DNA of 64,000 nucleotides, from assembly GCF_000519005.1 (NCBI RefSeq), contig NZ_JAER01000008.1, positions 1 through 64,000 of the forward strand, read 5' to 3'. Source of the stretch: Nocardioides sp. J54. GTDB lineage: Bacteria > Actinomycetota > Actinomycetes > Propionibacteriales > Nocardioidaceae. Shown here in pieces: positions 42,424 to 59,235 of this stretch. The translations under genes and the position numbers were made by a program. The notes below the pieces were generated by a model. The model saw nothing but the letters and a program-made list of their open reading frames with translations. It ran no database searches and was not told the origin of the DNA. The first letter of the stretch is position 1; every line of letters starts with the position of its first letter.

Positions 42424-43682
42424 CGGCGCGCTTCCTCCAGGACGGTGCGGAGGGTGGCGACGAGGAGCTCGATGTCGGCCTCCGTGGCGACCAGCGGCGG
42501 GGCGAAGCGGACCGTCGAGCCGTGGGTGTCCTTGGCGAGGACCCCGTGGCGCATCAGGCCCTCGCAGACCTCGCGGCCGGTCATCAGCGCCGGGTCGACG
42601 TCGACGCCGGCCCACAGGCCGCGGACGCGGACCGCCAGCAGGCCCTGCCCGATGAGCTGCTGGAGACCGGCCTCCAGCCGGTCGCCGAGCACGCGGGCGC
42701 GCTCCTGGAACTCGCCGGTCTTGAGGATCTGCACCACCTCGTGCCCGATCGCGGCGGCGAGCGGGTTGCCGCCGAAGGTCGAGCCGTGGGTGCCGGGCCG
42801 CACGACGTCCATCACCACGCGGTCCGCAGCGATCGCCGAGACGGGGTAGAGCCCGCCACCGAGCGCCTTGCCCAGGATGTAGATGTCGGGGACGACGTCC
42901 TCGTGGTCGCAGGCGAAGGTGCGGCCGGTGCGGGCCAGCCCGGACTGGATCTCGTCGGCGACCATCAGCACGTTGCGCTCGGTGCAGAGCTGGCGCAGCT
43001 GGCGCAGGAAGCCCTCCGGCGGCAGCACGACGCCGCCCTCCCCCTGGATCGGCTCGAAGAGCACCGCGACGGTCGAGTCGTTGATCGCCGCGGCCACGGC
43101 GTCGATGTCGCCGTACGGGACGCCGACGAAGCCGGGGGTGAACGGGCCGAAGTCCGCGGTGGCGACGTCGTCGTCGGAGAAGCTGACGATGGTCGTCGTA
43201 CGGCCGTGGAAGTTGCCGTGCATCGTGATGATGTTCGCGGTGCCCGGCGTGACGCCCTTGACCTGGTAGCCCCACTTGCGGCTGACCTTGATCGCGGTCT
43301 CCACGGCCTCGGCCCCGGAGTTCATCGGCAGCACGGCCTCCTTGCCCGTGAGCTCGCAGAGCGCCTCGGCGAACGGACCGAGCTGGTCGTTGAAGAAGGC
43401 ACGGCTGGTGAGTGTCAGCTGCCGGAGCTGGTCGGTGGCGCGGGCGACCAGGCGCGGGAGGCCGTGGCCGAAGTTCAGCGCGGAGTAGCCCGCGAGGCAG
43501 TCGAGATAGCGGTTGCCCTCCACGTCGGTCACCCAGGCGCCCTTGCCGTGGGTCAGCACGACCGGCAGCGGGTGGTAGTTGTGCGCCGCGTGCCGCTCGG
43601 TCAGCTCGATCTGCTCGGCAGTCCGGGCGCCCTCGCCCTTCACGCTGCCAGGGGTCTCGTTCAGTGCCGTGGTGGAGGTCAT
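42420..43682 (-). CDS. rocD: Ornithine--oxo-acid transaminase
   Basis: Encodes 420 aa, class III PLP fold. NYHPLPVVLTHGKGAWVTDVEGNRYLDCLAGYSALNFGH is the ornithine aminotransferase opening, followed by MNSGAEAVETAIKVSRKWGY, FEPIQGEGGVVLPP, ADEIQSGLARTG and the PLP Lys in LGKALGGGLYPVSA (~270). It converts ornithine to glutamate 5-semialdehyde. ATG 43682 is supported by a CATTCT -10 box six nt upstream; ATG 43700 is an alternative. Divergent from pruA, which takes its product. Confidence 0.93.
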   Translation of the reverse strand: MTSTTALNETPGSVKGEGARTAEQIELTERHAAHNYHPLPVVLTHGKGAWVTDVEGNRYLDCLAGYSALNFGHGLPRLVARATDQLRQLTLTSRAFFNDQLGPFAEALCELTGKEAVLPMNSGAEAVETAIKVSRKWGYQVKGVTPGTANIITMHGNFHGRTTTIVSFSDDDVATADFGPFTPGFVGVPYGDIDAVAAAINDSTVAVLFEPIQGEGGVVLPPEGFLRQLRQLCTERNVLMVADEIQSGLARTGRTFACDHEDVVPDIYILGKALGGGLYPVSAIAADRVVMDVVRPGTHGSTFGGNPLAAAIGHEVVQILKTGEFQERARVLGDRLEAGLQQLIGQGLLAVRVRGLWAGVDVDPALMTGREVCEGLMRHGVLAKDTHGSTVRFAPPLVATEADIELLVATLRTVLEEARR

Positions 43683-43702: not shown

Positions 43703-43728
43703 CACTTTGTCGCGCAAGGGGCTATTCT
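43700..43728 (+). promoter_or_regulatory. pruA promoter (TTCCAC-N17-TATTCT)
   Basis: -35-like TTCCAC at 43700-43705 and -10-like TATTCT at 43723-43728 with 17-bp spacing, about 30 nt before the pruA GTG. A GAGGAGGA ribosome site lies at 43748-43755. Confidence 0.5.
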
Positions 43729-43758
43729 GAAATCTCAGTTACACAACGAGGAGGATTC

Positions 43759-45471: not shown

Positions 45472-46323
45472 GTGACTGACATCCCTGGCGGCCACGCCTC
45501 GGTGCGCAAGCTGCTCACGGCGATGCTCAACGAGCTCAGCAACAGCGAGCGCAAGGTCGCCCGGGCGTTGCTGGCGCAGTACCCGACCGCCGGCCTGACC
45601 ACGGTCGTCGACCTCGCCACGGCGGCCTCGGTCAGCCCGCCCACCGTGGTGCGGTTCGTGACCCGGCTCGGCTTCAGCGGGTTCCCGGCGTTCCAGCGCG
45701 CGCTGGTGCACGAGCTCAACGGGGAGCTGGGCTCGCCGCTGAAGCAGTACCCCGAGAAGGGCGGTCCCTCCAAGGAGGGCGTGCTGACGGAGACCTACCA
45801 GGCCTTCGCCGCCATGCTCTCGGCGTCCTACGAGGAGCTGCCGGAGTCGGAGTTCCACAAGATGACCAAGCTGCTGTGCGACCCGGGCCGTGAGGTCCGG
45901 GTCGCCGGTGGCCGGTTCAGCGGCTCGGTGTCGTCGTACCTCGTGGGGCACCTGCGCCTGCTGCGCGCCGGGGTCCACCACGTCGACGGTGACGACCTCG
46001 ACCGCCGTACCGCCATCGCGGACGCGTCGTCCAGCACGGTGCTGGTCATCTACGACTACCGGCGCTACACCGACCGGAGCGTGGTCTTCGCCGAGGGCAT
46101 GGCGGCCCGCGGCGCGACGGTGTGCCTGATGACCGACAACTGGCTCTCCCCGATCGCCAAGTTCGCAAAGGTGGTCCTGCCCATGCGGGTCGACTCGGCC
46201 TCGCCGTTCGACTCCCTGGTGGCGTCCATGGCCCTCACCGAGAGCCTGGTCGCGGCGGTGGCCGCCGAGCTCGGCGACGCCGGCGTCAAGCGCCTGGAGC
46301 TGGTCGAGGAGTCCGGCGGCTGA
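45472..46323 (+). CDS. MurR/RpiR-family transcriptional regulator
   Basis: Encodes 283 aa. An N-terminal HTH_6 domain (SNSERKVARALLAQYPTAGLTTVVDLATAASVSPPTVVRFVTRLGFSGFPAFQ, about 22-75) and a C-terminal SIS domain (about 125-275: REVRVAGGRFSGSVSSYLVGHL, ASSSTVLVIYDYRRYT, CLMTDNWLSPIAKFA). RpiR proteins bind phosphosugars or other small anions. The position after pruA suggests control of the arginine/ornithine genes, possibly at the 43690 palindrome (inference). Confidence 0.9.
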   Translation: MTDIPGGHASVRKLLTAMLNELSNSERKVARALLAQYPTAGLTTVVDLATAASVSPPTVVRFVTRLGFSGFPAFQRALVHELNGELGSPLKQYPEKGGPSKEGVLTETYQAFAAMLSASYEELPESEFHKMTKLLCDPGREVRVAGGRFSGSVSSYLVGHLRLLRAGVHHVDGDDLDRRTAIADASSSTVLVIYDYRRYTDRSVVFAEGMAARGATVCLMTDNWLSPIAKFAKVVLPMRVDSASPFDSLVASMALTESLVAAVAAELGDAGVKRLELVEESGG

Positions 46324-46594: not shown

Positions 46595-46630
46595 AAGCAG
46601 GGCCCCACCGCGGACGGTGGGGCCCTGCTT
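46595..46630 (-). terminator. Intrinsic terminator after the livM-like gene
   Basis: Exact 16-bp arms (AAGCAGGGCCCCACCG and its complement) with a 4-nt loop, 38 bp past the end of the leftward transporter operon. Confidence 0.75.
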
Positions 46631-46668
46631 GGTTCCTGACGCCGTCGGTCGCGCGTCCGGGGACGGGA

Positions 46669-47742
46669 CTACCCGGCGTGGGCGGGCTCGCGCTCCGCCT
46701 CGGGAGCCGGCTCGGCGGCGCGGCGGCGCGAGCCCGGGAGCCGGAGCTCACGCACGCCCATCAGGCCGTAGGGCGCCTTGACCAGCACCACGAGCAGGAC
46801 GCCCGCGACGATCAGGTCGGCCACACCCGCCGGCAGCGCCGAGCCGCCGGTGAACTGGCCGTCCTGGAAGCGACGCAGCACCTCCTGGAGCGCGCTGACC
46901 GCCAGGGCGCCGACGACGGCACCGCTCAGCGACAGGTAGCCGCCGAGCACGATCATCACGACGAAGGAGAAGGTCGCGGCGAGGAAGAAGCCGTTGACGT
47001 TGAACGACGTCAGGTAGCCGGCGTACAGCGCCCCGGCCACGCCACACAGCATCGCGCTGATCACCCAGGCGATGGCGCGGTGCCGGCCGACGGCGATCCC
47101 GGCCGCCTCGGCGGCCCAGAAGTCCTCGCGGGAGGCGCGCAGCTGGAGGCCGCCGCGCGAGCACCTGTAACCCCAGGCCACGACCACGGCCAGCGCCGCG
47201 ACCGCGAACGCCCACCAGGCCGTCGTGCCGCGCGGGATGCCGATCATGCTCGAGGAGCCGCGGGTGACCTCGGTCCAGCTGTTGAGCACGTTGTAGGTGA
47301 CCATGAGCATCGCCAGCGTCGCGATGCCGGACTGCAGGCCGCTCAGCCGCGCCACGACGGGCGCGGTCACCAGTCCGACGACCCCGGCCACCACGGCACC
47401 GGCGAGCAGCGCCACCGGGAAGCTGGTGTGCACGTCGGCCAGCCACGACAGCCAGCCCGGCAGGTCGGAGAAGAGCGACTTCTTCAGTGGCACCGGGATG
47501 GTCAGGTACGCCGTCGTGTACGCGCCGGCCGCCATGAACGCCACGTGCCCGAAGGACATGACGCCGGAGTTGCCGGAGAAGACCGACAGCCCGACCACGA
47601 AGACCACCGAGACCAGGGCGAGGGTGGCCACCCGTGCCGTGGTGACGTCGCCGTAGGCCCCGATGAGGGCGACGACGAGGACGAGCCCGATCAGGATCGC
47701 GGGCGTCGAGACGGCTGCGACGAGCCGGTTCTGGTTCTTCAC
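46669..47742 (-). CDS. livM: Branched-chain amino acid-type ABC transporter permease (LivM family)
   Basis: Encodes 357 aa from GTG 47742. About nine helices are visible. It carries the LivM signature NSGVMSFGHVAFMAAGAYTTAYL and the loop near ASREDFWAAEAAGIAVGRHRAIAWVISAMLCGVAGALYAGYL. A Pro/Glu/Arg-rich C-terminal tail of about 25 residues is cytoplasmic. Last gene of the eight-gene leftward operon; overlaps LivH by GTGA. Confidence 0.92.
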   Translation of the reverse strand: MKNQNRLVAAVSTPAILIGLVLVVALIGAYGDVTTARVATLALVSVVFVVGLSVFSGNSGVMSFGHVAFMAAGAYTTAYLTIPVPLKKSLFSDLPGWLSWLADVHTSFPVALLAGAVVAGVVGLVTAPVVARLSGLQSGIATLAMLMVTYNVLNSWTEVTRGSSSMIGIPRGTTAWWAFAVAALAVVVAWGYRCSRGGLQLRASREDFWAAEAAGIAVGRHRAIAWVISAMLCGVAGALYAGYLTSFNVNGFFLAATFSFVVMIVLGGYLSLSGAVVGALAVSALQEVLRRFQDGQFTGGSALPAGVADLIVAGVLLVVLVKAPYGLMGVRELRLPGSRRRAAEPAPEAEREPAHAG

Positions 47743-48614
47743 GAGACACGCACCTTGGTACCGGAGAGGAGGCCCTGGGGCCGCACGACGAGCACGGCGA
47801 TGAGGGCGCTGAACAGGAAGGCGTCGCGGAAGGCGATCAGGTCGGTCGGCAGCAGCGACTCGAGCAGCGCGGTGGCCGCACCGAGCAGGAAGCCCCCGAG
47901 CGCCGCGCCCTTGAGGCTGCTCATGCCGCCGAGCACGGCACCGATGACACCGATCAGCATCGGCTGCAGGCCCATCTCGGCACTCACCGATCCCTGCCGG
48001 GCCACCAGGACCGCGGCTCCGACGGCGGACAGCACGCCCACGATGACGAACGCCGCCGGGATGACCAGGTTCGCCTTCACCCCGAGGCTGGACGCCATCC
48101 GGAAGTCCTCGGCCGCCGCCCGCAGCTGGATGCCCAGGCTGGTGCGGCCCATGAGCCACGCGACGCCGAGCAGCATCACGCCGCACAGGCCGAGCGTAAG
48201 CAGGTCCAGGACGCTGACGTCCGCACCGAGGAACTCGATCCGGTGGGAGAGGAAGCTCTCCGGCGGCACGCCCTTGGTGCGGGGCAGGACCGTCATCCGG
48301 GCCACGCTCTGCAGCGCGAGGCTGACCGCGAAGGACGCGATCATCAGCGTCACCGGGTCGGCGTCGCGCAGCGGGTGGAACGCCAGGCGTTCGCTGACCA
48401 CGGCCACGACGACCGAGAAGAGGATCGCCATCAGCACCGCGAACGGCCAGGGCTGGTCGCGGAACAGGTACATGGCGAAGGCGCCGGCGAGGATGAGCTC
48501 GCCGTAGGCGAAGTTCATCAGGCCGAGGACACCGAAGAGCAGCGCGACGCCGATGGTCAGCAGCGCGTAGAGCGCTCCGAGCCCGACCGCGTTGACGAGG
48601 AACTCGATGATCAT
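47739..48614 (-). CDS. livH: Branched-chain amino acid-type ABC transporter permease (LivH family)
   Basis: Encodes 291 aa. Opens with VNAVGLGALYALLTIGVALLFGVLGLMNFAYGELILAGAFAMYLF, the LivH hallmark. It has about eight helices and the coupling region SLGIQLRAAAEDFRMASSLGVKANLV. It forms the membrane channel with LivM. Overlaps LivF by ATGA. The true solute is not necessarily a branched-chain amino acid. Confidence 0.93.
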   Translation of the reverse strand: MIIEFLVNAVGLGALYALLTIGVALLFGVLGLMNFAYGELILAGAFAMYLFRDQPWPFAVLMAILFSVVVAVVSERLAFHPLRDADPVTLMIASFAVSLALQSVARMTVLPRTKGVPPESFLSHRIEFLGADVSVLDLLTLGLCGVMLLGVAWLMGRTSLGIQLRAAAEDFRMASSLGVKANLVIPAAFVIVGVLSAVGAAVLVARQGSVSAEMGLQPMLIGVIGAVLGGMSSLKGAALGGFLLGAATALLESLLPTDLIAFRDAFLFSALIAVLVVRPQGLLSGTKVRVS

Positions 48615-49345
48615 TGGGGGGCACCCACTTCCGCAGGGGAGAAGCCGAGGTAGTCCACGACCGCCGGGATGCGGCCGAGCTCGGCCGCGGTGCCGCTGCC
48701 GAGCACGCGGCCCGGCGCCTGCAGCACGTAGGAGCGGTCGGAGACCTCGAGGGAACGGACGGCGTTCTGCTCGACCAGGAGGATGGTCATGCCCTCCTCG
48801 CGCAGCGCCACGACCACGTCGAAGATCAGGTCGACGATGATCGGCGCCAGGCCGAGGGTGGGCTCGTCGAGCAGCAGCAGCTTCGGGTTGAGCAGCAGGG
48901 CCCGCGCGATCGCGAGCTGCTGCTGCTCACCGCCGGACAGCAGGCTGGCGCCGCGGGACCAGTACTTGCGCAGGACGGGGAACCGCTCGAGCTCGCGCTC
49001 GATGTCGGCGGCCACCTGGGCCTTGTCCTTGCGGGTGACCGCACCCAACCGCAGGTTCTCGCCGACGGTCAGGCTGGCGAAGATGCCGCGGCTCTCGGGG
49101 ACGTGCGAGACGCCGGCCCGGATGGTCGAGTAGGACTTGTCCGAGACCGAGACGCCGTTGACCGTGATCGAGCCGGAGGCCACGGGCACCTCGCCCATGA
49201 TCCCCTTGACCAGGGTGCTCTTGCCGGCGCCGTTCTGGCCGATGAGCGAGACCAGCTCGCCCTCGCCGACCTCGAGCGAGCAGCCCTGCACCGCCCGGAC
49301 CGACGAGCCGTACTGGAGGTGGACATCCTCGATGCGCAGGACCAT
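48611..49345 (-). CDS. livF: ABC transporter ATP-binding protein (LivF family)
   Basis: Encodes 244 aa. Walker A GQNGAGKST is near 37-45, SHVPESRGIFASLTVGENLRLG, signature LLSGGEQQQLAIARALLLNPK, and Walker B LLLLDEPTLGLAP. No extra domain. One base separates it from LivG. Confidence 0.94.
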   Translation of the reverse strand: MVLRIEDVHLQYGSSVRAVQGCSLEVGEGELVSLIGQNGAGKSTLVKGIMGEVPVASGSITVNGVSVSDKSYSTIRAGVSHVPESRGIFASLTVGENLRLGAVTRKDKAQVAADIERELERFPVLRKYWSRGASLLSGGEQQQLAIARALLLNPKLLLLDEPTLGLAPIIVDLIFDVVVALREEGMTILLVEQNAVRSLEVSDRSYVLQAPGRVLGSGTAAELGRIPAVVDYLGFSPAEVGAPQ

Positions 49346-49346
49346 G

Positions 49347-50099
49347 TCAGTGTCGCTTTCCGAAGTAGATCTCGATGACCCGCGGGTCGGAGCGCACCGT
49401 CGCCGGCTCGCCCTCGACGACCGTGCGGCCGCTGTCGAGCACGTGCAGGCGGTCGCAGGTCCCCATCACCACGGACATGTCGTGCTCGACGAGGAGCACG
49501 CCGCAGTCGCGGCGCTGGGCGAACCCGCGGATCGCGGTGATCAGCTCGACCGCCTCGCTCTCGTTCTGGCCGGCGGCCGGCTCGTCGAGGAGGAGGAAGC
49601 GCGGGCCCGTGGCGAGCGCCCGGGCGATCGCGGCGGTGCGGACCCGCCCGGCGGTGAGCTGCTGGGCCAGGTCGTGGGCGACCGGCTCGAGCCCGAGCTC
49701 CTCGATGATCTCCGCGGTCAGGGCTCGTGCCGCGGGGCGGCGGAGGCCGCCGCCCAGGGCGGCGGCCTCCACGTTCTCCCACACCGTGAGCCGGCCGAAG
49801 ACCCGGCCGCTCTGGAAGGTGCGGACGACACCCCGGCGTGCGCGCTGGCGCATGGAGAGCCGGGTGATGTCCTGGTCGTCGATCGAGATGCTGCCGGCGC
49901 TGGCCTTGAGCATCCCGCTCAGCAGGTTGAGCGTGCTGGTCTTGCCCGAGCCGTTGGGGCCGATCAGGCCCAGCACCTCACCGCTGCGCACCTCGATGGT
50001 GACGCCGTCGACGGCCTTGACACCGTCGAAGTGGATCCCCCCGCCGGCCATCCGGAGCACGGACGACCGGCGGGTGGGGTTGAGGTCGGTGGCGGTCAT
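49347..50099 (-). CDS. livG: ABC transporter ATP-binding protein (LivG family)
   Basis: Encodes 250 aa. Walker A GPNGSGKTST is near 47-56, RRGVVRTFQSGRVFGRLTVWENVE (LivG-type Q-loop), a degenerate signature LTAGRVRTAAIARALATGPR in place of LSGGxQ, Walker B FLLLDEPAAG, and LLVEHDMSVVMGTCDRLHVLD. The altered signature is notable but Walker motifs are intact. Overlaps the binding-protein gene by ATGA. Confidence 0.92.
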   Translation of the reverse strand: MTATDLNPTRRSSVLRMAGGGIHFDGVKAVDGVTIEVRSGEVLGLIGPNGSGKTSTLNLLSGMLKASAGSISIDDQDITRLSMRQRARRGVVRTFQSGRVFGRLTVWENVEAAALGGGLRRPAARALTAEIIEELGLEPVAHDLAQQLTAGRVRTAAIARALATGPRFLLLDEPAAGQNESEAVELITAIRGFAQRRDCGVLLVEHDMSVVMGTCDRLHVLDSGRTVVEGEPATVRSDPRVIEIYFGKRH

Positions 50100-51346
50100 G
50101 ACGCGCAGGCGTTGCCGTCACCGAGGTCCGGGATCGTGTCGACACGCTGCTGGCCCGCGAAGGTCATCGCACCGTTGGCGACCTCGACGACCGTCATCGG
50201 CATGTCGATGATCTTGTGGCAGCTCGACGAGAAGTAGTTCACGTCGCCGATCGGCGTCGACACCGAGCCGTCACCCTCGAGGGCGTCCTTCAGGTCGCTG
50301 CCGGACAGGGACTTGGCGTCGCCGACGGCGTCCGCGATCGCGGTGACCATGTTGTAGCCCAGGAGCGCGTAGCTGGAGGCCGGCTTCGAGCCGTAGTCCG
50401 CCTCGTAGGCCTTCACGAAGGCGTCGAGCTCGTCGGCCGAGTCGGCGCCGCTGCAGTACACGTAGCAGGCGAAGGCGGTGTAGTAGATGTCGCTGGCCTT
50501 GTCACCGACGATGTCCAGCAGGGCCTGGCCGTCGAGGGCCGCGGGGGCGACCACGGGGATGGTCACGCCGGCCTCGCGCAGCTGGCGGATCGCGGTGGAG
50601 CCGCCCGGGTTCCAGCTGGCGACGTACACGAAGTCAGGCTGGGTCGACAGGCCCTTGAGGCGGCTGGCCTGGCTGTTGATGTCGACGTTGTCGCCACCGG
50701 GGAAGGCGTCCTTGCCGACGATCTTGCCGCCGAGGTCCTCGAACTTCGCGGTGAAGTAGCGGCCGGCCGACTTGGTGTACTCGATGCTCTCGTCCTGCAG
50801 CACGTAGGCCGTCTTCCAGCCCTTCTCGAACGCCCAGGCGGCGCCGGAGGCACCCTCGACGTCGCTGCCGGCGTTCGCGGAGAACACGTAGTCGCCGAGC
50901 GTGGTGGTGTCGGCCATCTTCGGGTCACCGGCGCAGATGGAGACCGCCGGGATGCCGGAGGACTGCGCGACGGTCGCACCGGGGGCGCTGAGGTCGAAGT
51001 CGCACGGCGTGACCAGCAGGTCAATGCCCTCCGAGATCAGCTCGGTGGCCGCGGTGCCCACGGTGTCGGGGCTGGACCGGACGTCCTTGCTGATGACCTT
51101 GATCTTCTTGCCGTCGATCCCGCCGGCGTCGTTGATCTCCTTGACGCGCAGCAGGGCGGCGTTGCCCGGCTCGACGTCGAAGGGAGCCATGTTGCCGCTC
51201 TGGCTGAGCGCGAAGCCGATGACGATCTCGTCGGCGTCACTGCCGGAGTCGTCCGAGCCCGAGCACGCGGTCGCGAGCACGAGGGGGGCGATGGCAGCCG
51301 CTACCAGGGCCTTGGAGCCTGACAAAGGGCGCGCGAATCCAAGCAT
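50096..51346 (-). CDS. ABC transporter substrate-binding lipoprotein (LivK family, periplasmic-binding type 1)
   Basis: Encodes 416 aa. Signal peptide with lipobox LATAC (Cys ~28) and a Ser/Asp linker, then a type 1 binding fold starting IVIGFALSQSGNMAPFDVEPGNAALLRVKEINDAGGIDGKKIKVISKD. It captures the solute for LivHMGF. AGGTAGGA precedes the ATG. Its position 67 bp after the aminotransferase gene suggests that the ligand is the substrate of the catabolic genes, probably an amino compound (inference). Confidence 0.92.
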   Translation of the reverse strand: MLGFARPLSGSKALVAAAIAPLVLATACSGSDDSGSDADEIVIGFALSQSGNMAPFDVEPGNAALLRVKEINDAGGIDGKKIKVISKDVRSSPDTVGTAATELISEGIDLLVTPCDFDLSAPGATVAQSSGIPAVSICAGDPKMADTTTLGDYVFSANAGSDVEGASGAAWAFEKGWKTAYVLQDESIEYTKSAGRYFTAKFEDLGGKIVGKDAFPGGDNVDINSQASRLKGLSTQPDFVYVASWNPGGSTAIRQLREAGVTIPVVAPAALDGQALLDIVGDKASDIYYTAFACYVYCSGADSADELDAFVKAYEADYGSKPASSYALLGYNMVTAIADAVGDAKSLSGSDLKDALEGDGSVSTPIGDVNYFSSSCHKIIDMPMTVVEVANGAMTFAGQQRVDTIPDLGDGNACAS

Positions 51347-51413
51347 GGGTCCTACCTAAGGGTCAGAGAGGTTGGGTTGAGGGGTGAGGAGGGGCGGCCC
51401 TGGCCGACGCTGG

Positions 51414-52739
51414 CTAGGAGATGGCCGCCCTCAGTGCGACCCGGACGCACTCGATGGTGGTGGCGACATCGGCCTCGGTGGTGGCCGCGTTGAGCCGACG
51501 GTCCCCGGTCGGGAAGGCCGGCTCGAGAACACCTTGGGACAGGAGCGAGGCGTGGTAACGCCCGTACATCTCCGCGTCGCACTCGAGCGACTCGCGGAAG
51601 TTCTTGGGGAGCTCGGGGCGGAAGTAGATCGCCCACTCCGAGCCCAGGCCGGTCACCGTGGCCGGCGCACCGGTCTCGGCGATCGCGTCGGCGATGCCGG
51701 CGCGCATCTGCTCACCCCGCGCGTACAGCGTGGTGAAGATGTCGTCGCTCGCCATGATCTCGAGGGTCTTGTTGGCCGCGGCGAGGGCGTACGGCGAGGC
51801 GTTGTAGGTGCCGTCGATGGTCGCCTCGGTCTTGCTGTAGGCACCGAGGTGGCCCATCAGCGAGTCGATGCCGGCCAGGCCGGCCAGCGAGTAGCCGTTG
51901 GCGACGGCCTTGCCGAAGGCGGTCAGGTCGGGGGTGACGCCGCAGATCGACTGGTAGCCACCGATCGCCGCGCGGAAGCCGGTCTTGATCTCGTCCATCA
52001 CCATCACGACGCCGTGCTGGGTGCACAGCTCGCGCAGCAGCTCGAGGAAGCCGGGCTCGGCGGGCACGCACCCGAAGCTGTGCACGTAGCCCTCGGTGAA
52101 GGCCGCGGCCAGCTGGGCACCGTGCTCGGCGAAGGCGGCGCGCAGGCCGTCCGCGTCGTTCCACTCGACGACGACGACGTCGTCCACGACGGCCGGGTGG
52201 AGGCCCCCGCCGTTCGGGGTGTTGAGCGGGGTGTCGGGTCCGAGGTCCTTGCGGGAGCTGCCGACCGCGACGTGGTCGTTCCAGCCGTGGTAGGAGCCGT
52301 GGAACTTCAGCACCTTGAGCCGGCCGGTGGCCGCGCGGGCGATGTGGACCGCGTGCATGGTGGCATCGGTGCCGGAGGTGCAGAACGCGACCTTGTCGGC
52401 CGACGGCATCACCTCGCAGATCCGCTCGGCCAGCTCGGCCTCGCCGGCCTGCGGGCCGACGCCGGTCAGGTCACAGGTGTTGGCAGCCTTCAGCACCGCC
52501 TCGTTGACCCGCTCGTCGCTGTGGCCCAGGACGATCGGGCCCCACGCGTTCAGGTAGTCGACGTACTGGCGACCCTCCTGGTCCCAGATGTAGGCGCCCT
52601 TGGTGCGGACGAACACCTGCTGCCAGCCGACCCGGTGGCCGGAGGAGACGCCGCGGGGCACGACGGCCTCCGCACGGCGCCAGCTCGCGACCTGCTCGGC
52701 GGCCGGGGCGGGGTCGGTGGTCTCAGACAGAGAGGACAC
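51414..52739 (-). CDS. Class III PLP aminotransferase (glutamate-1-semialdehyde aminomutase-like)
   Basis: Encodes 441 aa. It has VVPRGVSSGHRVGWQQVFVRTKGAYIWDQEGRQYVDYLNAWGPIVLGHSD, AFCTSGTDATMHAVHIARAATGRLKVLKFHGSYHGWND, DEIKTGFRAAIGGYQ and the PLP Lys in TAFGKAVANGYSLAG (~273). The HemL-like opening does not mean haem synthesis here: it lies in a catabolic operon, overlapping the GMC gene by 17 bp. It probably transaminates an aldehyde or ketone made by the adjacent oxidoreductases, or releases amino groups from the substrate. Confidence 0.88.
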   Translation of the reverse strand: MSSLSETTDPAPAAEQVASWRRAEAVVPRGVSSGHRVGWQQVFVRTKGAYIWDQEGRQYVDYLNAWGPIVLGHSDERVNEAVLKAANTCDLTGVGPQAGEAELAERICEVMPSADKVAFCTSGTDATMHAVHIARAATGRLKVLKFHGSYHGWNDHVAVGSSRKDLGPDTPLNTPNGGGLHPAVVDDVVVVEWNDADGLRAAFAEHGAQLAAAFTEGYVHSFGCVPAEPGFLELLRELCTQHGVVMVMDEIKTGFRAAIGGYQSICGVTPDLTAFGKAVANGYSLAGLAGIDSLMGHLGAYSKTEATIDGTYNASPYALAAANKTLEIMASDDIFTTLYARGEQMRAGIADAIAETGAPATVTGLGSEWAIYFRPELPKNFRESLECDAEMYGRYHASLLSQGVLEPAFPTGDRRLNAATTEADVATTIECVRVALRAAIS

Positions 52740-54195
52740 GGTCGGTCGCTCCTTCGGTGGTGGAGGTGGCCAGGTCCTCGAGCAGCGCAGCGCTGAGCCG
52801 CTCGGCGACCATGACGACGGGGAGGTGGGTGTTCGCAGCCGGCACCTCGGGGATGATGGAGCAGTCGATGACGCGCACGTTGTCCAGGCCGAGGACCCGA
52901 CCGCGCTGGTCGACCACGGCGTCCGGGTCGTCGGCGCGACCCATCCGGGCGGTGCCGACGGCGTGGAAGTAGTCGCCGATCGACGAGCTGAGCCACGCCT
53001 CGTAGGCCTCGGGGTCGTCGAGTGCCGAGACCGGGGTGCCGGCGGCGTCGATGAACGCCTCCTCGACGATCTCCTGGAAGGGCGGCGTCTCGAGCACCCG
53101 ACGGGCCAGGTCCACGGCCTCGCGCATGACCTGGCGGTCGCGCTCGGTCGTGAGCATCCGCTCGGCGATGACCGGCGGGCCCGACGGGTCGTCGGGGTTG
53201 AGTCGGACCTCTCCGGTGGACGTCACCGTCATCACCGCGGCCATCACGACCGCGTGGTGCTGCGGCGAGCTCTCGGAGAGCGCGCCCTGCATCGGCAGGA
53301 GGTGGATGTCGCCGTACTCGACGCTGGAGGAGGCGCGGACCACGGCGTTGATGCAGGGCTTGCCCTCGCGCACCTCCTGGTGCCCGGGCCGCAGGGAGAG
53401 CAGGATCGAGGCAGCGGGGTGGTCCTGCAGGCCCTTGCCGACGCCCGGACGGTCGCAGCCGCTGCGCAGCAGGATCGCCGGGGTCTCAATGGTGCCCGCG
53501 GCGAGGACCACCTGGTCGGCCCGCAGCTCGGTGCCGTCCACGAGCACCACGCCGACGACGGCGTCGCCCTCGCGGAGCAGCCGCTCGACGCGGCTGTCCG
53601 TGCGCAGCTCGACCCGGCCCGCGGCGACCGCCGGGCGCAGGTAGGCCTCGGCGCTGGAGCGACGGCCGTTCTCGTCGGCGTTGCGCCACAGCGTGCCCGC
53701 CCCGTTGTCGGGGGTGAGCGTGTCGACGCCGGTCGTCATGCCCAGCACCCCGGCCGCCTCGACCAGAGCCCGGTCCATCGGGGTGTAGTCCTCAGGCTGC
53801 GTCGCGACGAGGTCGGCACGGAGCCGCTCGAAGGTCGGGGCCACGGCCTCCCAGGACCACTCGTTGAGGCCGAAGTGCTCGGCCCAGCGGTCGTAGTCAC
53901 GCGGCAGCCCCGGCAGGGCGAGCATCGCGTTGACCGAGGACGACCCGCCCACGCCGCGGCCGCGGTGGTACTGGCGGGGCGCGTCGCCCTCAAGCCGCGT
54001 GGCGAGCAGGCCAGGGTCGAAGGCCTCGGGGGAGACCATCGCGTCCATCCAGTTCGCGGACGCCAGTCGGTCGCCGGTCTCGGTGCCCTGCCAGTCCGGT
54101 CCACCCTCGAGGAGGACGACGTCGTGGTCCTCGCCCAGCCGGGCGGCGACGATGCAGCCGGCGCTGCCGGCCCCGACGACGATGATGCGTGCCAT
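52723..54195 (-). CDS. GMC family FAD-dependent oxidoreductase
   Basis: Encodes 490 aa. The N-terminal dinucleotide motif IIVVGAGSAGCIVAARLGEDHDVVLLEGG, GMC signature RGRGVGGSSSVNAML (~78-92), second signature VVLAAGTIETPAILLRSG (~232-249), and the C-terminal FHAVGTARMG...NVRVIDCSIIPEVPAANTHLPVVMVAERL with active-site His and Asn. It oxidises alcohols or alcohol-like centres. It shows some likeness to MftG-type GMC proteins, and it lies beside an MftD-like gene, but no mycofactocin peptide or radical-SAM gene is in the window. Confidence 0.9.
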   Translation of the reverse strand: MARIIVVGAGSAGCIVAARLGEDHDVVLLEGGPDWQGTETGDRLASANWMDAMVSPEAFDPGLLATRLEGDAPRQYHRGRGVGGSSSVNAMLALPGLPRDYDRWAEHFGLNEWSWEAVAPTFERLRADLVATQPEDYTPMDRALVEAAGVLGMTTGVDTLTPDNGAGTLWRNADENGRRSSAEAYLRPAVAAGRVELRTDSRVERLLREGDAVVGVVLVDGTELRADQVVLAAGTIETPAILLRSGCDRPGVGKGLQDHPAASILLSLRPGHQEVREGKPCINAVVRASSSVEYGDIHLLPMQGALSESSPQHHAVVMAAVMTVTSTGEVRLNPDDPSGPPVIAERMLTTERDRQVMREAVDLARRVLETPPFQEIVEEAFIDAAGTPVSALDDPEAYEAWLSSSIGDYFHAVGTARMGRADDPDAVVDQRGRVLGLDNVRVIDCSIIPEVPAANTHLPVVMVAERLSAALLEDLATSTTEGATDRVLSV

Positions 54196-54218
54196 GGTGC
54201 GTTTCTCTCCGGTCCTGC

Positions 54219-55400
54219 TCAGCGGGCGGGCGGGACGAAGAAGCCAGGGTTGAGGACCATGAGGTCCTCGCGGGACAGCTCGGACAGCGAGCTGCGACCG
54301 ATGCCGTACATGGTCTCGTGGATGCCGCTGCGCAGGATCTGCAGGACCTCGTGCACGCCGTCCTCACCGTTGACCGCGAGGCCGTAGAGGAAGGCCCGAC
54401 CGACGAGCACGGCGCGCGCACCGAGCGCCAGCGCCTTCACCACGTCGGATCCGCGGCGGATGCCGCCGTCCAGGGTGACCTCGACCTGGTCGCCGACAGC
54501 CTCGACGATGGAGGGCAGGTAGCGCAGCGGGGACGGGCTGCCGTCGATGTTGTTGCCGCCGTGGTTGGACACACCGATGGCGTCCGCACCCAGGTCGACG
54601 CTCATCTTCGCGTCCCGGATCGTGTTGATGCCCTTCACCATGAAGGGGCCACCCCACAGCTCACGCAGCCACTTGACGTCGTCCCAGGTCGGCGGCGGCG
54701 TCTCCTCGAAGCGCGACCAGGCCGCGCCGAAGTAGGGCTCGGTGCCGTCGAGCTCGAACAGGTTGGGCACCTTGAGCTGCGGGATCTGGCCGCGGCGCAG
54801 GTAGCTGGCGAACCAGCGCGGGCGGCTGAGCGGCTCGGGCGCCAGCTCGGCCATGGTCCGCAGCTTCATGTCGCTCGGCGGCGACGGCGGCACACCCCAG
54901 TCGCGGCGCGGCGTGTGGGACCAGTCGAGGGTCACGATCAGCGCCTTGGCGCCGGCGTCACGGGCGGCCTCGACGCGGGCCTCGATCTCGGTCTTGGTGC
55001 CCACCCAGTAGAGCTGGAAGATCGTCTTGTCGTTGGCGCGGGCGACGTCCTTGACCGAGTCGGACGCCCACGAGCTGAGGCCCACCGCGGTGCCGGCCCG
55101 GGCCGCCGCGCGGGCCACCCCGACCTCGCCGTCCGGGTGGATCGCCTGCGCGCCCACCGGCGAGATGACGACCGGGAAGTCGATGTCGAGACCCATCAGC
55201 GAGGTCTTGAGGTCGATGTTGGTGGGCCGGTCGAAGACGGTCGGCGAGAAGCCCAGCTCGTTGTAGGCCCGGAGGTTCTCGTCCAGGGTCCAGCCCTGCT
55301 CGTTCCCGGCCTTGACGGCCAGCCACACGGCACGGGGAAGACGCTTCTTGGCGAGTCTCTCCGCCTCCGCGAGGTTGCGGAAGCGCACACGCTTGCTCAT
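54219..55400 (-). CDS. FMN-dependent alpha-hydroxy-acid oxidase family protein, MftD-like
   Basis: Encodes 393 aa, TIM barrel. It has the MftD-like opening AEAERLAKKRLPRAVWLAVKAGNEQGWTLDEN, FPVVISPVGAQAIHPDGE, the LDWSHTPRRDWG segment, SNHGGNNIDG (~275-284) and LDGGIRRGSDVVKALALGARAVLVGRAFLYGLA. In lactate/glycolate oxidases the motif is SNHGxRQLD, with Arg binding the substrate carboxylate; here that Arg is Asn, as in pre-mycofactocin synthase MftD, which oxidatively deaminates an amine. AAGGAG lies 7 nt before the ATG. First gene of the leftward operon. Confidence 0.87.
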   Translation of the reverse strand: MSKRVRFRNLAEAERLAKKRLPRAVWLAVKAGNEQGWTLDENLRAYNELGFSPTVFDRPTNIDLKTSLMGLDIDFPVVISPVGAQAIHPDGEVGVARAAARAGTAVGLSSWASDSVKDVARANDKTIFQLYWVGTKTEIEARVEAARDAGAKALIVTLDWSHTPRRDWGVPPSPPSDMKLRTMAELAPEPLSRPRWFASYLRRGQIPQLKVPNLFELDGTEPYFGAAWSRFEETPPPTWDDVKWLRELWGGPFMVKGINTIRDAKMSVDLGADAIGVSNHGGNNIDGSPSPLRYLPSIVEAVGDQVEVTLDGGIRRGSDVVKALALGARAVLVGRAFLYGLAVNGEDGVHEVLQILRSGIHETMYGIGRSSLSELSREDLMVLNPGFFVPPAR

Positions 55401-55431
55401 GGGGGACTCCTTCAGTGGGTCGGAGGGCTTC

Positions 55432-55460
55432 ACCGTAGGTTGAAACGTTTCTTACGGCAA
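55432..55460 (-). promoter_or_regulatory. Leftward promoter with palindromic operator in the spacer
   Basis: On the minus strand: -35 TTGCCG (55455-55460), 17-bp spacer, -10 TACGGT (55432-55437). The spacer contains the perfect palindrome GAAACGTTTC (55442-55451), the form of LacI/GalR-type operators. This should control the MftD-like/GMC/aminotransferase/Liv operon. Confidence 0.65.
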
Positions 55461-55552
55461 GACCCCTTGCAGAACTTTTTGTAACAGCCGTGCCAGCAAC
55501 GGAGGCTCGGGTGAGAGAATCTGAAGTCGACCAAGTCTTGTAATCAGTATTG

Positions 55553-55594
55553 CAGAATGCAAGGGTTGACCGCATTCTGTAATGCATGTACCAA
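55553..55594 (+). promoter_or_regulatory. Rightward promoter region with 8-bp inverted repeat
   Basis: CAGAATGC (55553-55560) and GCATTCTG (55572-55579) flank a candidate -35 TTGACC (55566-55571); 17 bp on is a weak -10-like TACCAA (55589-55594). TTGCAGAA recurs at 55468 nearer the leftward promoter. A regulator bound here would block the glutamine-synthetase-like operon. Confidence 0.55.
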
Positions 55595-55645
55595 TCGTGG
55601 TGGCAGGACGACGACTGCTCCTGACCCCGCTCGAGAAGGTGGACG

Positions 55646-56938
55646 ATGACCCCCGACAAGACCCTCTTCGTCGCGACCAGCGACCTCGCCGGCCAGCTGC
55701 GCGGGCGATCCGTGCCCTCCGCGGCCGCAGACTCCGTCCTGCGCCGGGGCGTCGGCTGGGTGCCTGCTGACCTCGCCATCACCGCCTTCGGGCCGATCGC
55801 GCCGAACGTCTTCGGCTCGACCGGTGACCTCCGGCTCATGCCGGACGCCTCCACCCAGGTCGACATCCCCGCGCGCGGGGAGGACCCTGCCGTCTCGATC
55901 GTGCTGGCCGACCAGTGCGAGCCGGACGGCTCGGCGTGGGCGTGCTGCCCGCGGACCTTCGCGCGCACCGCGCTGGAGGACCTGCGGCGCGAGACCGGCC
56001 TGGAGGTGACCGCGTCCTTCGAGCACGAGTTCATGGTCCGCGACCTGCCCGCGACCGCGCCGTTCTCCTTCGAGCGGCACCGCAGCGTCGAGCCGTTCGG
56101 CTCCGAGCTGGTGGCCCTGCTGGAGTCCGCGGGCCTGCAGCCCGAGAACTGGCTGCCCGAGTACGGCGAGGACCAGTTCGAGATCACCCTGGAGCCCGCC
56201 CCCGGACTGGTCGCTGCCGACCGCGCGGTCCTGCTCAAGGAGCTGGTGCGCGACCACGCCCGCCGCCACGGCCACCGGGTGACCTTCGCCCCCCTCGCGC
56301 ACCCCGACGGCAGCGGCAACGGCGTCCACGTGCACCTCTCGCTGCAGACCGCCGACGGCTCCCCCGCGCTCCACGACCCCTCGGCACCGGCCGGCCTCAG
56401 CGAGGTCGGACGACGTTTCTCCGCCGGGATCCTGGCGCACGCCCGAGCCCTGCTGGCGTTCACCGCCCCGAGCCCGGTGTCCTACCTCCGGCTCACGCCG
56501 CACCGCTGGAGCGCCGGCGGCGTCTTCCTCGCCGAGCGCAACCGCGAGGCGTTGCTGCGCATCTGCCCGACGAGCACGGTCGGCGGCGGCGACCCGTCGC
56601 GCCAGTACAACCTGGAGTTCCGCGCCTCCGACGCGACGGCGAACCCGTGGCTGACCCTCGGGCTCCTCGCCCGTGCCGGTCTCGCGGGCATCACCGGCGA
56701 CCTGCCGGAGCCGGTGATCTGGCCGGAGACCGTGACCGAGGAGGAGCTCGCCGGCGTGCCGCTCCTTCCCACGGACCTCTCCGCCGCGCTGGACGACCTG
56801 CTCGCCGACGAGGTCGTCACCGGCTGGCTCGACCCGGCCCTGCTCGACACCCACGTGTCGGTCAAGCGGGCCGAGCTCGAGGCCGTCGCCGCGCTGGACC
56901 CGGTCGAGCGGTGCGCGAGGTTCGCCGATGTCTACTGA
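55646..56938 (+). CDS. Glutamine synthetase-family (gamma-glutamyl-amine synthetase/FluG-type) ligase
   Basis: Encodes 430 aa, similar to class-I-like GS relatives and shorter than GlnA. Metal and substrate positions are visible: SFEHEFMV (~124-131), EYGEDQFEITLEPAPG (~172-187), GNGVHVHLSL (~228-237), PSPVSYLRLTPHRWS, NREALLRIC and NLEFRASDATANPWL. There is no adenylylation-loop Tyr motif. Such proteins ligate glutamate to amines rather than ammonia (e.g. PuuA, IpuC). First gene of the rightward operon; overlaps the amidohydrolase gene by 11 bp. Confidence 0.88.
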   Translation: MTPDKTLFVATSDLAGQLRGRSVPSAAADSVLRRGVGWVPADLAITAFGPIAPNVFGSTGDLRLMPDASTQVDIPARGEDPAVSIVLADQCEPDGSAWACCPRTFARTALEDLRRETGLEVTASFEHEFMVRDLPATAPFSFERHRSVEPFGSELVALLESAGLQPENWLPEYGEDQFEITLEPAPGLVAADRAVLLKELVRDHARRHGHRVTFAPLAHPDGSGNGVHVHLSLQTADGSPALHDPSAPAGLSEVGRRFSAGILAHARALLAFTAPSPVSYLRLTPHRWSAGGVFLAERNREALLRICPTSTVGGGDPSRQYNLEFRASDATANPWLTLGLLARAGLAGITGDLPEPVIWPETVTEEELAGVPLLPTDLSAALDDLLADEVVTGWLDPALLDTHVSVKRAELEAVAALDPVERCARFADVY

Positions 56939-58085
56939 CGTGTCCCCCGCCCTCGCCGAGGCGGTCGGCGCCCTGCGGTTGGTGGACCACCACGTCCACT
57001 CCTCGCTGGCGGCTCCGGTCGGGCTCGAGGAGCTCGGTGGCCTGCTGAGCGAGTCCGACCGACCCCCGGCGCCCGGCACCTCGCCGTTCGACAGCCAGGT
57101 GGCCTACGCCGTCCGCGCCCACTGTGCCCCGCTGCTGGACCTCGACCCCCACGTCCCCATGGAGGACTACGTCGCCGCCCGTGCGGCACTGCCGGTCGAG
57201 GAGGTCGACCGCCGGCTGCTCGGCGCCGCGGGCGTGGACCGCTGGCTGATCGACACCGGCTTCCGCGGTGACGCCCTGCTCGACCTGCCCACCTTCGGGT
57301 CCCGGGTGCCCGGCGCGTCGGTGGAGGAGGTGGTGCGGTTGGAATCCGTCCTGGAGGGCATCGCCCGCGACGGCGACGCCGCGAGCCTGGAGCTGCGCTT
57401 CGTCGAGGCCCTCGCCACGGCGAGCGCCGGCGCGATCGGGCTCAAGTCGGTCATCGCCTACCGCCACGGCTTCGACTTCGACCCGGCCCGCCCGACCACC
57501 GACGAGGTCCGTGAGGCCGCCTCGCACTGGCTGGCCGAAGTCGAGCGCAGCGACGCCGAGCCCCGGGTGGACCACCCGGTCCTGCTCCGGATGGCGCTGT
57601 GGCACGGCATCGACACCGGCCTGCCGCTCCAGCTGCACGTGGGCTTCGGCGACCCCGACCTCGACCTGCACCGGTGCGACCCGTTGCTGCTCACCGAGTG
57701 GCTGCGCCTGGTCGAGCCCACCGGGACGCCGGTGATGCTGCTCCACTGCTACCCGTTCCAGCGGCAGGCGGGCTTCCTGGCCCACGCCTTCCCGCACGTC
57801 TACCTCGACGTCGGGCTCGCCGTGAACTACGTCGGCGCCGCCGCGCCGACCGTGATCGCGGAGTCCCTCGAGCTGGCGCCGTTCACCAAGGTGCTGTACT
57901 CCTCCGACGCCTGGGGTCCCAGCGAGCTCCACCTGCTCGGGGCGCAGCTGTGGCGCCGGGGCATGACCACCGTCCTCTCCCGCTGGGTCGAGGACGGCGA
58001 GTGGTCCGTCGCGGACGCCGTGCGCGTCGCCACCCTGGTCGGCCGCGAGAACGCCGAGCGTGCCTACGGAGGTCGGCGTGGCTGA
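56928..58085 (+). CDS. Amidohydrolase (FluG N-terminal-type, metal-dependent)
   Basis: Encodes 385 aa. TIM-barrel metal hydrolase: VDHHVHSS near 19-26, GLKSVIAYRHGFDF (bridging Lys region, ~166-179), LQLHVGFGDPDLDL, MLLHCYPFQRQAGFLA, the YLDVGLA strand and VLYSSDAWGPSE with the catalytic Asp (~323). In fungal FluG and plant NodGS this domain is fused in front of a GS-like domain; here they are two overlapping genes in reverse order. It probably hydrolyses an amide linked to the GS-like reaction (inference). Confidence 0.85.
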   Translation: MSTDVSPALAEAVGALRLVDHHVHSSLAAPVGLEELGGLLSESDRPPAPGTSPFDSQVAYAVRAHCAPLLDLDPHVPMEDYVAARAALPVEEVDRRLLGAAGVDRWLIDTGFRGDALLDLPTFGSRVPGASVEEVVRLESVLEGIARDGDAASLELRFVEALATASAGAIGLKSVIAYRHGFDFDPARPTTDEVREAASHWLAEVERSDAEPRVDHPVLLRMALWHGIDTGLPLQLHVGFGDPDLDLHRCDPLLLTEWLRLVEPTGTPVMLLHCYPFQRQAGFLAHAFPHVYLDVGLAVNYVGAAAPTVIAESLELAPFTKVLYSSDAWGPSELHLLGAQLWRRGMTTVLSRWVEDGEWSVADAVRVATLVGRENAERAYGGRRG

Positions 58086-59235
58086 CATCTGGGACGTGCT
58101 CGAGAGCCACCTCGCCGAGGCCGCCGAGCTGCGTCGTACCCTGCACCGGCAGCCGGAGCTGTCCGGCAACGAGGCGCTCACGCGTGACCTCGTGCTCGCA
58201 GCCCTCCCGGCGACCAGCACGCCGACCAAGGTCGCCGAGACCGGCGCCGTGCTCCGGATCGGCGGAGCGGGTCGCTGCGTCGGGATGCGCGGGGAGATGG
58301 ACGCGCTGCCGGTCAGCGAGTCGACCGGCGTCGACTGGGCCTCGCAGAACCCCGGCGTCATGCACGCCTGCGGCCACGACGTGCACCTGGCTGCGCTCGT
58401 CGCCGTCGCGCGCACGATCCACGAGGTCGGCTCCGACGTACCGCTGCTCGTGGTGCTGCAGCCGCGGGAGGAGACCTACCCGTCGGGCGCCCGGGACATC
58501 GCCGAGGACGGCATCCTCGATCGCGAGCAGTGCGCCGTCATGATCGGCGCGCACATCCAGCCGGCGCTGCCCGCGGGTGTCGTCGCCTGCGTCGCCGGGG
58601 GCGTCAACGCCTCGTCCGACGAGTTTGAGATCGAGGTCCGTGGCGAGGCCGGACACGCGGCCTACCCGCACCTCGCCGACGACCCGCTGCTGGCACTGGC
58701 CGAGACGGTCGTCGCGCTGCAGTCGGTGGTGAGCCGTTCGATCGACCCGATGCGCTCCGCCGTGGTCGGTGTCTCGTCCTTCCAGGCGGGCCAGGCGGCC
58801 AACGTGGTGCCCGACGTGGCCCGGGCGACCGGCACGATCCGCGCCCTCGCCTCGGAGACCCGGGACCTGATCCACAAGCGGATCGTGTCGGTGGCCGAGA
58901 ACATCGCCCGGGCGCACGACTGCGAGGCGTTCGTGAGGATCACCGTCGGCGAGCCCGTCCTCGAGAACGACCCGACGCTGGTCGAGGTCGTCACGGCCGA
59001 GCTCACGGCCCAGGACACCCCGGTCTCCACGGACCTCCGCTCGCTCGGTGCCGACGACTTCTCCTACTTCTCCGAGCGGGTGCCGGCCACCATGATGTTC
59101 GTGGGGACGGAGTCGGACGAGTCGCTGCACACCGCGAGCCTGCTGCCCACCGACGCGGACCTGCGTGCCGTCGCCCGGGCGATGTTGGCCGGCTACCTCG
59201 GCGGCGCAGCGATGATCCGGGCGGGCTCCGCCTGA
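58078..59235 (+). CDS. M20 family amidohydrolase/aminoacylase
   Basis: Encodes 385 aa from GTG 58078 with GGAGGT just upstream; overlaps the previous gene by 8 bp. Metal ligands are in MRGEMDALPVSE (~70-81), MHACGHDVHLA (~95-105) and LQPREET (~132). The dimerisation lid follows NASSDEFEIEVRGEAGHAAYPHLADDPL. These peptidase-fold enzymes cleave N-acyl amino acids, hippurate-like or gamma-linked amides. It is probably the final deacylation step of the same pathway. Confidence 0.9.
   Translation: MADIWDVLESHLAEAAELRRTLHRQPELSGNEALTRDLVLAALPATSTPTKVAETGAVLRIGGAGRCVGMRGEMDALPVSESTGVDWASQNPGVMHACGHDVHLAALVAVARTIHEVGSDVPLLVVLQPREETYPSGARDIAEDGILDREQCAVMIGAHIQPALPAGVVACVAGGVNASSDEFEIEVRGEAGHAAYPHLADDPLLALAETVVALQSVVSRSIDPMRSAVVGVSSFQAGQAANVVPDVARATGTIRALASETRDLIHKRIVSVAENIARAHDCEAFVRITVGEPVLENDPTLVEVVTAELTAQDTPVSTDLRSLGADDFSYFSERVPATMMFVGTESDESLHTASLLPTDADLRAVARAMLAGYLGGAAMIRAGSA

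Follow-up and report, generated by a model that had tools for sequence, protein, structure and literature searches.

The closest described counterparts of the locus reported here are the fungal protein FluG, the bacterial ligases that resemble glutamine synthetase (GS), and MftD, the premycofactocin synthase. Passages of PMC6478659, citing Ladner et al., describe PA5508 as preferring bulky amines such as catecholamines; they also state that LSEI_0440 and PA5508 replaced the halves of fungal FluG in Aspergillus, and call the pathway in which FluG acts unidentified. According to passages of two further papers, a GS-like enzyme starts aromatic amine breakdown in Pseudomonas (PMC11335346), and MftD deaminates 3-amino-5-[(4-hydroxyphenyl)methyl]-4,4-dimethyl-2-pyrrolidinone (AHDP) to premycofactocin, with a ketoamide (PMC11778925). 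Here we analysed the first 64,000 nucleotides of contig NZ_JAER01000008.1 of Nocardioides sp. J54 (assembly GCF_000519005.1), hereafter the window. Between positions 41152 and 59235, genes for a GS-like ligase, a FluG-type amidohydrolase and an MftD-like flavoenzyme lie together with genes for an importer, a regulator and ornithine enzymes, in a conserved, probably catabolic unit of about 15 genes that is very probably co-regulated. Among the matches listed in the open-licence PubMed Central literature, at the level of titles and abstract openings, no description of this gene set turned up.

The unit is made up of the following features, given with the family models and scores that identify them:

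41152..42423, minus strand: glutamate dehydrogenase of the GdhB/GdhA type, belonging to the unit only locally (NCBIfam NF041398, 487 bits, cut-off 620; NF040817, 463 bits, cut-off 750; both below)
42420..43682, minus strand: RocD-type ornithine aminotransferase (TIGR01885, 474.6 bits, cut-off of 378.4 passed)
43728..43743, no strand: operator-like palindrome TGAAATCTCAGTTACA in the divergent region between rocD and the gene for 1-pyrroline-5-carboxylate (P5C) dehydrogenase
43801..45432, plus strand: L-glutamate gamma-semialdehyde (P5C) dehydrogenase (TIGR01236, 789.6 bits, cut-off of 613.6 passed; start uncertain, 43759 possible)
45502..46323, plus strand: RpiR-family regulator with HTH_6 and SIS domains (Pfam PF01418 and PF01380)
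46596..46629, no strand: symmetrical G+C-rich terminator-like hairpin between the convergent ends of the RpiR and LivM genes
46669..47742, minus strand: LivM-type permease (from the frame as read; homologues in relatives)
47739..48614, minus strand: LivH-type permease (PF02653, 104 bits; UrtB/LivH matches below cut-off)
48611..49345, minus strand: LivF-type ATPase (best matches UrtE and LivF, below cut-off)
49347..50099, minus strand: LivG-type ATPase (best match LivG, below cut-off)
50096..51346, minus strand: substrate-binding protein of the Liv/HAAT kind (PF13458, 178 bits; relatives in the PDB)
51414..52739, minus strand: class-III aminotransferase like glutamate-1-semialdehyde aminomutase, here called AT3 (PF00202, 174 bits)
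52723..54195, minus strand: GMC-family oxidoreductase using flavin adenine dinucleotide, MftG-like (PF00732, PF05199; TIGR03970, 216 bits, below cut-off)
54219..55400, minus strand: MftD-like flavin mononucleotide (FMN) enzyme of a clade of its own (TIGR03966, 547 bits, cut-off of 470.85 passed; tree and diagnostic residues)
55539..55593, no strand: two operator-like palindromes, TGTAATCAGTATTGCA (55539) and TGTAATGCATGTACCA (55578), spaced by 39 bp within the control region that both gene groups share
55646..56938, plus strand: GS-like gamma-glutamyl ligase of the PA5508 (4hpp) type (PF00120, 228 bits)
56928..58085, plus strand: FluG-type (2qpx-like) TIM-barrel amidohydrolase (PF04909)
58060..59235, plus strand: M20-family amidohydrolase of the YxeP / indole-3-acetic acid (IAA)-amino acid hydrolase kind (TIGR01891, 266 bits, cut-off of 153.75 passed)

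An earlier reading of the letters alone (the sequence-only reading) had described eight leftward genes facing three overlapping rightward ones, joined by overlaps or short gaps and sharing one control region. Open frames and family models bear this out, with overlaps of 4 to 26 nt and a 245-bp region between the two facing gene groups that holds operator-like palindromes. Its left border at 46595 was set too short, the unit running on to 41152. The hairpin that it had placed at the end of the leftward operon exists as a strong structure at 46596-46629, with 12 G-C pairs among its 15 and a folding energy of -42.6 kcal/mol (z -6.2; none of 200 shuffles did as well), but a consensus terminator scan did not list it. 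The five adjacent genes for a binding protein, two permeases and two ATPases constitute an ATP-binding cassette (ABC) importer of the Liv/HAAT type; a second frame at 46748-47749, without a family match, overlaps LivM, which lies in the frame ending at 46669. The MftD-like gene starts with ATG, a GTG 33 nt upstream being possible.

A scan with the MftD-like protein gave 71 named loci, 16 of which (L088-L103) are 67-92% identical to it, the next being 59% or less; these 16 and the window form the 17 unit loci counted below. The 16 named loci are spread over Nocardioides, Pimelobacter, Aeromicrobium, Tamaricihabitans, Streptomyces, Actinoallomurus, Leucobacter, Gulosibacter and a marine actinobacterium, and span five actinobacterial families plus one unplaced strain; in Pimelobacter simplex ATCC 6946 the identity of the unit genes to those of the window is 82-93%. 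The presence of unit genes in relatives was judged by tblastn; genes of relatives come from a simple caller or from longest frames, with approximate starts, and neighbours are named by eye unless a family model is given. First, the MftD-like, GMC and AT3 genes stand side by side in 17/17 loci. Second, the GS, amidohydrolase, M20 and RpiR genes share the contig of the MftD-like gene in 15/17 and lie elsewhere in the genome in the other two: in Tamaricihabitans at a separate place (L252, with an RpiR protein), and in Leucobacter weissii on a second short contig (L254) that carries the amidohydrolase, LivG, LivF, LivH, LivM, RpiR, GS and M20 genes. Third, the unit contig carries the complete importer set, binding protein plus four Liv genes, in 14/17 loci; in L. 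weissii this set is divided between two contigs, and it was not seen by tblastn in L094 and L095. LivM homologues 60-88% identical occur in 14/16 relatives, once on a second contig. The sequence-only reading had proposed co-occurrence in other actinobacteria as its check, and the set does recur in these 16 further loci; the outcome that would have refuted it, homologues with no conserved co-occurrence, did not arise.

In a set of 145 relatives, the unit was found in 3, namely the genome of the window (G000; 4.75 Mb, 80 contigs) and G086 and G014, which belong to the same genus. Past LivM, the order in G086 and G014 is RpiR, P5C dehydrogenase, RocD and glutamate dehydrogenase, matching 41152-46323 of the window. 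At wider range the unit is rare, since a search of 394 genomes of the class at E up to 1e-100 gave 3 AT3 matches, counting the window and one in G452 that is only 43% identical, and a search of 396 genomes of the phylum at E up to 1e-90 gave, besides the window itself, a single GMC match at 45% identity. Several candidates for further members were rejected: an AT3 match in G449 (66%) sits on a contig of 7.3 kb that has no other unit gene, a GMC match in G629 (45%) has no labelled unit genes around apart from GMC itself, and a TIGR03966 match on G041:C4 shares 45% identity with the window protein and has none of the unit genes as neighbours. The latter (G041:C4:22708-23823, L084) scores 540 bits and holds one TGA and one TAG inside. 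The amidohydrolase was likewise dismissed as a sole marker, with matches in 23/145 relatives and the unit in only 3 of those; in the other 20 its identity is 43-57%, 17 have a long GS-like match at 30-34%, and the remaining three have a GS fragment at a contig end (L035) or no GS match (L034, L036). A smaller module, made of the amidohydrolase (plus M20 in L049), a GS-like gene and an APC-type permease without an MftD-like gene, is seen in L049 and L083. In Tamaricihabitans, the GS-amidohydrolase-M20-RpiR part (L252:4339-7028) is accompanied by an NCS1-like permease and an ArgE/DapE-like hydrolase, with no Liv match.

The two halves of the unit are tied together by a palindrome. In the form TGYAAT-N4-ATTRCA with <=2 mismatches it has two matches in 64 kb, where 0.17 are expected, and these two, at 55539 and 43728, are the two divergent control regions of the unit. 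The pattern was taken from the shared region of the window and, after viewing the sites of relatives, generalised to TGWAAY-N4-RTTWCA, to which the palindromes at 55539 and 55578 have one and two mismatches; the counts that follow (<=1 mismatch) are thus partly after the fact, and the RocD controls are their fairest part. All 10 linked RocD loci of relatives carry it, nine directly before rocD and the tenth, PHSC20C1, before the amidohydrolase, against 0/28 RocD loci of genomes without the unit and 0/9 unlinked or paralogous ones. Over whole loci, we counted 19 matches in 328,529 bases of the 16 unit loci (10/16 with at least one) and 0 in 502,203 bases of other loci; the background in the same scan was 7 matches in 885,813 bases, four of them in two loci of the regulon described below (L113/L127), and 3 in 843,539 bases without these. 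The whole genome of the window has 5 places, two of them in the unit, and a reversed-pattern control 2. A wider regulon in this genome was not retained, with only three further places against the two of the control and neighbours that look unrelated (a luciferase-like oxidoreductase, a small heat-shock protein and a SerC-like gene).

In the GS/MftD regions, two palindromes are often found with a spacing of 39 bp. Mismatches added up over 13 regions come to 48 for this spacing, against 81 for the next best spacing between 17 and 89, a median of 104, and a mean of 134 in shuffles that preserve base composition only; ten regions have pairs with one to four mismatches. Together, these observations make 41152-59235 of the window very probably one common regulon, probably under its own RpiR protein, and the shared sites speak for one inducer of both halves.

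The RpiR, RocD, P5C dehydrogenase and glutamate dehydrogenase genes move the reading of the unit towards a pathway that yields ornithine. RocD and P5C dehydrogenase pass equivalog cut-offs of NCBIfam as enzymes of ornithine catabolism, and the closest solved structures to the window RocD are an acetylornithine and several ornithine aminotransferases. A second, unlinked RocD of the same genome is 67% identical. RocD lies on the unit contig, at most ~11 kb from the MftD-like gene, in 10/16 other loci (L088, L089, L090, L091, L093, L095, L096, L097, L101, L103), hence 11/17 with the window; P5C dehydrogenase adjoins it in 7/10 linked relatives and glutamate dehydrogenase in 3/10. By comparison, neither adjoins RocD within the ~1.5 kb flanks on each side of the 28 RocD loci from genus members without the unit (0/28; 28 of 46 other matches, mostly best-scoring). 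Other ornithine enzymes appear elsewhere. In both Aeromicrobium, where RocD is not linked (a RocD of 61-62% lies elsewhere in the genome), ornithine cyclodeaminase adjoins M20 (505 and 488 bits, cut-off 350). In both Leucobacter, a gene of the Orn/Lys/Arg decarboxylase family (PF01276) is divergent from the MftD-like gene, and M20 is immediately followed by ornithine carbamoyltransferase (380 and 374 bits, cut-off 281). In N. hwasunensis RocD is linked, and on the GS side there are also a gene resembling proline dehydrogenase (201 bits against the NF045947 cut-off of 500, thus below; PF01619 passed) and P5C dehydrogenase. Since such enzymes stand where RocD is unlinked, ornithine is reasonably likely to be one output of the pathway. 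As a separate observation, five mycobacterial loci (L110, L119, L126, L129, L133) have a RocD homologue (59-64%) ~5-8 kb from a mycofactocin mftD.

Regarding the ligase, its closest solved relative by far is PA5508 (4hpp; E 1.2e-102), and it combines a GS catalytic domain with a replaced residue: the Glu in the true GS row (8ool, PGYEAPV), which we take to be the ammonium-site residue of GS, is Trp in both the window protein and 4hpp. This supports the gamma-glutamyl-type ligase named in the sequence-only reading and makes it a ligase of the PA5508 type. It passes none of four NCBIfam ligase cut-offs and is not PuuA by the equivalog model NF045547 (GGputSyn). The amidohydrolase is closest to 2qpx (E 1.9e-39), presumably LSEI_0440, and the best solved relative of the M20 hydrolase is 1ysj.

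The best-surviving alternative is an ordinary gamma-glutamyl pathway like Puu/GlnA4 that acts on a monoamine or polyamine, with RocD, P5C dehydrogenase and glutamate dehydrogenase as mere neighbours recycling the glutamate of the ligase. The GGputSyn score of 238 bits would suit it, although 650 are needed, and so would the 20 other loci that have the amidohydrolase without the rest of the unit (18 with a GS-like gene, one a fragment; 1 with M20; 0 with an MftD-like gene). What makes it unlikely is that RocD loci bear the palindrome only when linked to the unit (10/10 versus 0/28 and 0/9), and that Aeromicrobium has, instead of RocD, ornithine cyclodeaminase, whose product is proline rather than glutamate.

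A biosynthetic or tailoring system, with ornithine as the starting material of a specialised metabolite and the Liv system incidental, is improbable. AT3 scores near GntE of guanitoxin biosynthesis, though below its cut-off (304/525), and GMC and FMN oxidases are found in biosynthesis too; AT3 also stays below the cut-offs of PRK00062 (319/398) and HemL (305/527), and its best structure is 6w80. On the other hand, the five-gene importer keeps to the unit contig in 14/17 loci and is divided between two contigs in one more, no carrier-protein, nonribosomal peptide synthetase, polyketide synthase or exporter gene was noticed among the unit frames read by eye, and P5C dehydrogenase and glutamate dehydrogenase point to breakdown. 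The direction of the unit is probably catabolic.

The MftD-like enzyme is a homologue of MftD, as the sequence-only reading had it, but belongs to a clade distinct from mycofactocin MftD, and MftC is not over cut-off in 9/17 unit genomes. A tree of 99 rows sets the 17 unit proteins apart from the rest by a branch supported at 100/100; root placement is unsure, L154 and L157 being long and both kept out of the MftD group, and L056, L110, L156 and L084 were dropped from the alignment by the length or stop filter. The 17 unit rows are told from 80 others by eighteen diagnostic columns, including two gap columns. The motif NHGGNN is found in 17/17 unit rows and 80/80 MftD rows, where a glycolate oxidase row reads NHGARQ, with an Arg that presumably binds the substrate carboxylate. 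Because this motif is shared with MftD, and given the reaction of MftD on AHDP, it is plausible from the sequences that the enzyme acts on an amide-side carbon rather than on an alpha-hydroxy acid. In the genome of the window no MftC exceeds the cut-off (best 49 bits, 265 needed); MftC does so in 8/16 other unit genomes, for which genome completeness is not given. An MftC or MftE match is found in 0/16 unit loci, and MftC in 42/55 other loci of the same scan, several of the MftC-free ones being short contigs; the comparison group of MftD rows accordingly has MftC in the stretch for 42/55 and 26/30 loci, not for every row. By genome content, mycofactocin is not needed for the MftD-like version of the unit. 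A role of the unit in mycofactocin metabolism, the MftD-like enzyme being premycofactocin synthase and the GMC enzyme MftG, is thus highly improbable and was rejected: the TIGR03966 score, MftC in half of the other unit genomes and the set that two genomes hold beside mftC-mftD-mftE (below) would fit it, but MftC is missing over cut-off from the window genome and the other 8/16, no unit locus is linked to mftC or mftE, the clade is separate, the GMC protein scores 216 bits against the MftG cut-off of 387.45 (TIGR03970), and G014 and G086 hold a separate true MftD besides the unit.

A variant of the catabolic regulon is found in two metagenome-assembled genomes, L113 (Candidatus Nanopelagicales) and L127 (an uncultured actinobacterium next to L113 in the MftD tree). 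Their order is mftC-mftD-mftE followed by GS, RpiR, amidohydrolase, M20, GMC, RocD, a short-chain dehydrogenase/reductase (SDR) and AT3, so that RocD is linked to the set in both. The mycofactocin operon is a true one (in L113 MftC 650 bits, MftE 299 bits), and the SDR of L113 is of the mycofactocin-coupled kind (TIGR03971, 349 bits vs 300). Between GS and RpiR there are two palindromes spaced by 39 bp, and neither the MftD-like clade nor Liv genes were seen in the stretches examined of L113/L127. Because the SDR occurs, beside the mft operon, in the place of an MftD-like gene that was not seen there, the two enzymes may exchange places and perform the same oxidation, a suggestion we regard as tentative. 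More speculative, and on the unlikely side, is the wider proposal that the clade is a mycofactocin-free catabolic oxidase which acts, as MftD does, at a carbon adjacent to the carbonyl of an amide or lactam in a compound that contains ornithine, exchanged for the SDR and sharing a catabolic ancestor with MftD; if true, a cofactor-making family and a cofactor-using enzyme would swap inside one regulon.

Several neighbouring genes were noted besides. Past M20, from 59380 to 62207 of the window and on to ~69533 of G000:C68 (L085), lies a region that adjoins M20 and is not next to the unit in G086/G014; it encodes methylmalonate-semialdehyde dehydrogenase (TIGR01722, 686 bits), a class-III aminotransferase and an ABC transporter, together with genes like those for hydantoinase and nitrilase (transporter and these genes named by eye), resembling a pyrimidine or ureide breakdown cluster. 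Near the M20 end of the unit in PHSC20C1 there is a catalase gene (L185:4754-6499; PF00199, 585 bits), a single case that would fit an H2O2-forming oxidase. In Gulosibacter, HpaD (3,4-dihydroxyphenylacetate 2,3-dioxygenase; L100:19951-21093, 434 bits, cut-off 321) converges on the RpiR gene, possibly hinting at an aromatic substrate.

As a whole, the unit is best explained, with moderate confidence, as a catabolic regulon that combines import, gamma-glutamyl-type breakdown and ornithine enzymes. The Liv-type importer would take up a small nitrogen compound, possibly an amine or amino alcohol, and the PA5508-type ligase, judging from its family and active-site residue, would join glutamate to its amine. 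The MftD-like and GMC flavoenzymes may then oxidise carbinol or amine carbons, the class-III aminotransferase may handle the resulting carbonyl, and the FluG-type amidohydrolase and M20 hydrolase are predicted to cut amide bonds, with ornithine as one putative product. Ornithine would be carried towards 2-oxoglutarate by RocD and P5C dehydrogenase, joined by glutamate dehydrogenase in the window and its nearest relatives; by gene content, ornithine cyclodeaminase or other ornithine enzymes take the place of RocD in some relatives. Of the sequence-only reading, one conserved uptake and gamma-glutamyl-type catabolic set stands, but the set described there was not complete, the RpiR, RocD, P5C dehydrogenase and glutamate dehydrogenase genes having been missed. 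Ornithine lipid, hypusine, catecholamine and hydantoin were weighed as substrates, and in our judgement none has decisive support.

Some observations weigh against this explanation. The palindrome at <=1 mismatch is absent from 6/16 unit loci (L088, L089, L090, L092, L100, L102); the pair has four mismatches in all in L088-L090, five and six in Aeromicrobium, and eight, hence no real pair, in Gulosibacter, and in the Nanopelagicales variant palindromes lie between GS and RpiR and none before RocD. The RpiR protein as their binder is assumed from linkage. The Leucobacter genes could be an ordinary arginine locus (argF-argH-tyrS), the two species being close kin, and no ornithine enzyme was found in the stretches examined of Tamaricihabitans (L094) and Gulosibacter (L100). 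Finally, the GS, GMC and AT3 proteins pass no equivalog cut-off of NCBIfam, and M20 passes only a broad subfamily model.

In comparison with known systems, the unit shares RocD and P5C dehydrogenase with ornithine and proline catabolism, but the window RocD is a second copy that carries the operator-like site of the unit; this candidate operator and the candidate regulator offer a handle for finding the inducing substrate. Among the PA5508, GlnA4, GlnA3 and PuuA ligases, the window protein shares the Trp of PA5508, yet reaches the cut-off of no ligase model. As for MftD, the two enzymes belong by score to one FMN_dh subfamily and have Asn where glycolate-oxidase-type enzymes have Arg, whereas the unit enzyme forms its own clade, differs in 18 columns and lacks linkage to mftC and mftE; TIGR03966 thus also catches proteins from genomes without MftC, and an orphan clade of a cofactor-biosynthesis family gains a genetic context. 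Lastly, FluG is a fungal fusion of amidohydrolase and ligase, and homologues of both halves are adjacent and overlapping in the window, but as two separate proteins joined by M20, an importer and two flavoenzymes, which gives a bacterial FluG-type pair linked to ornithine enzymes.

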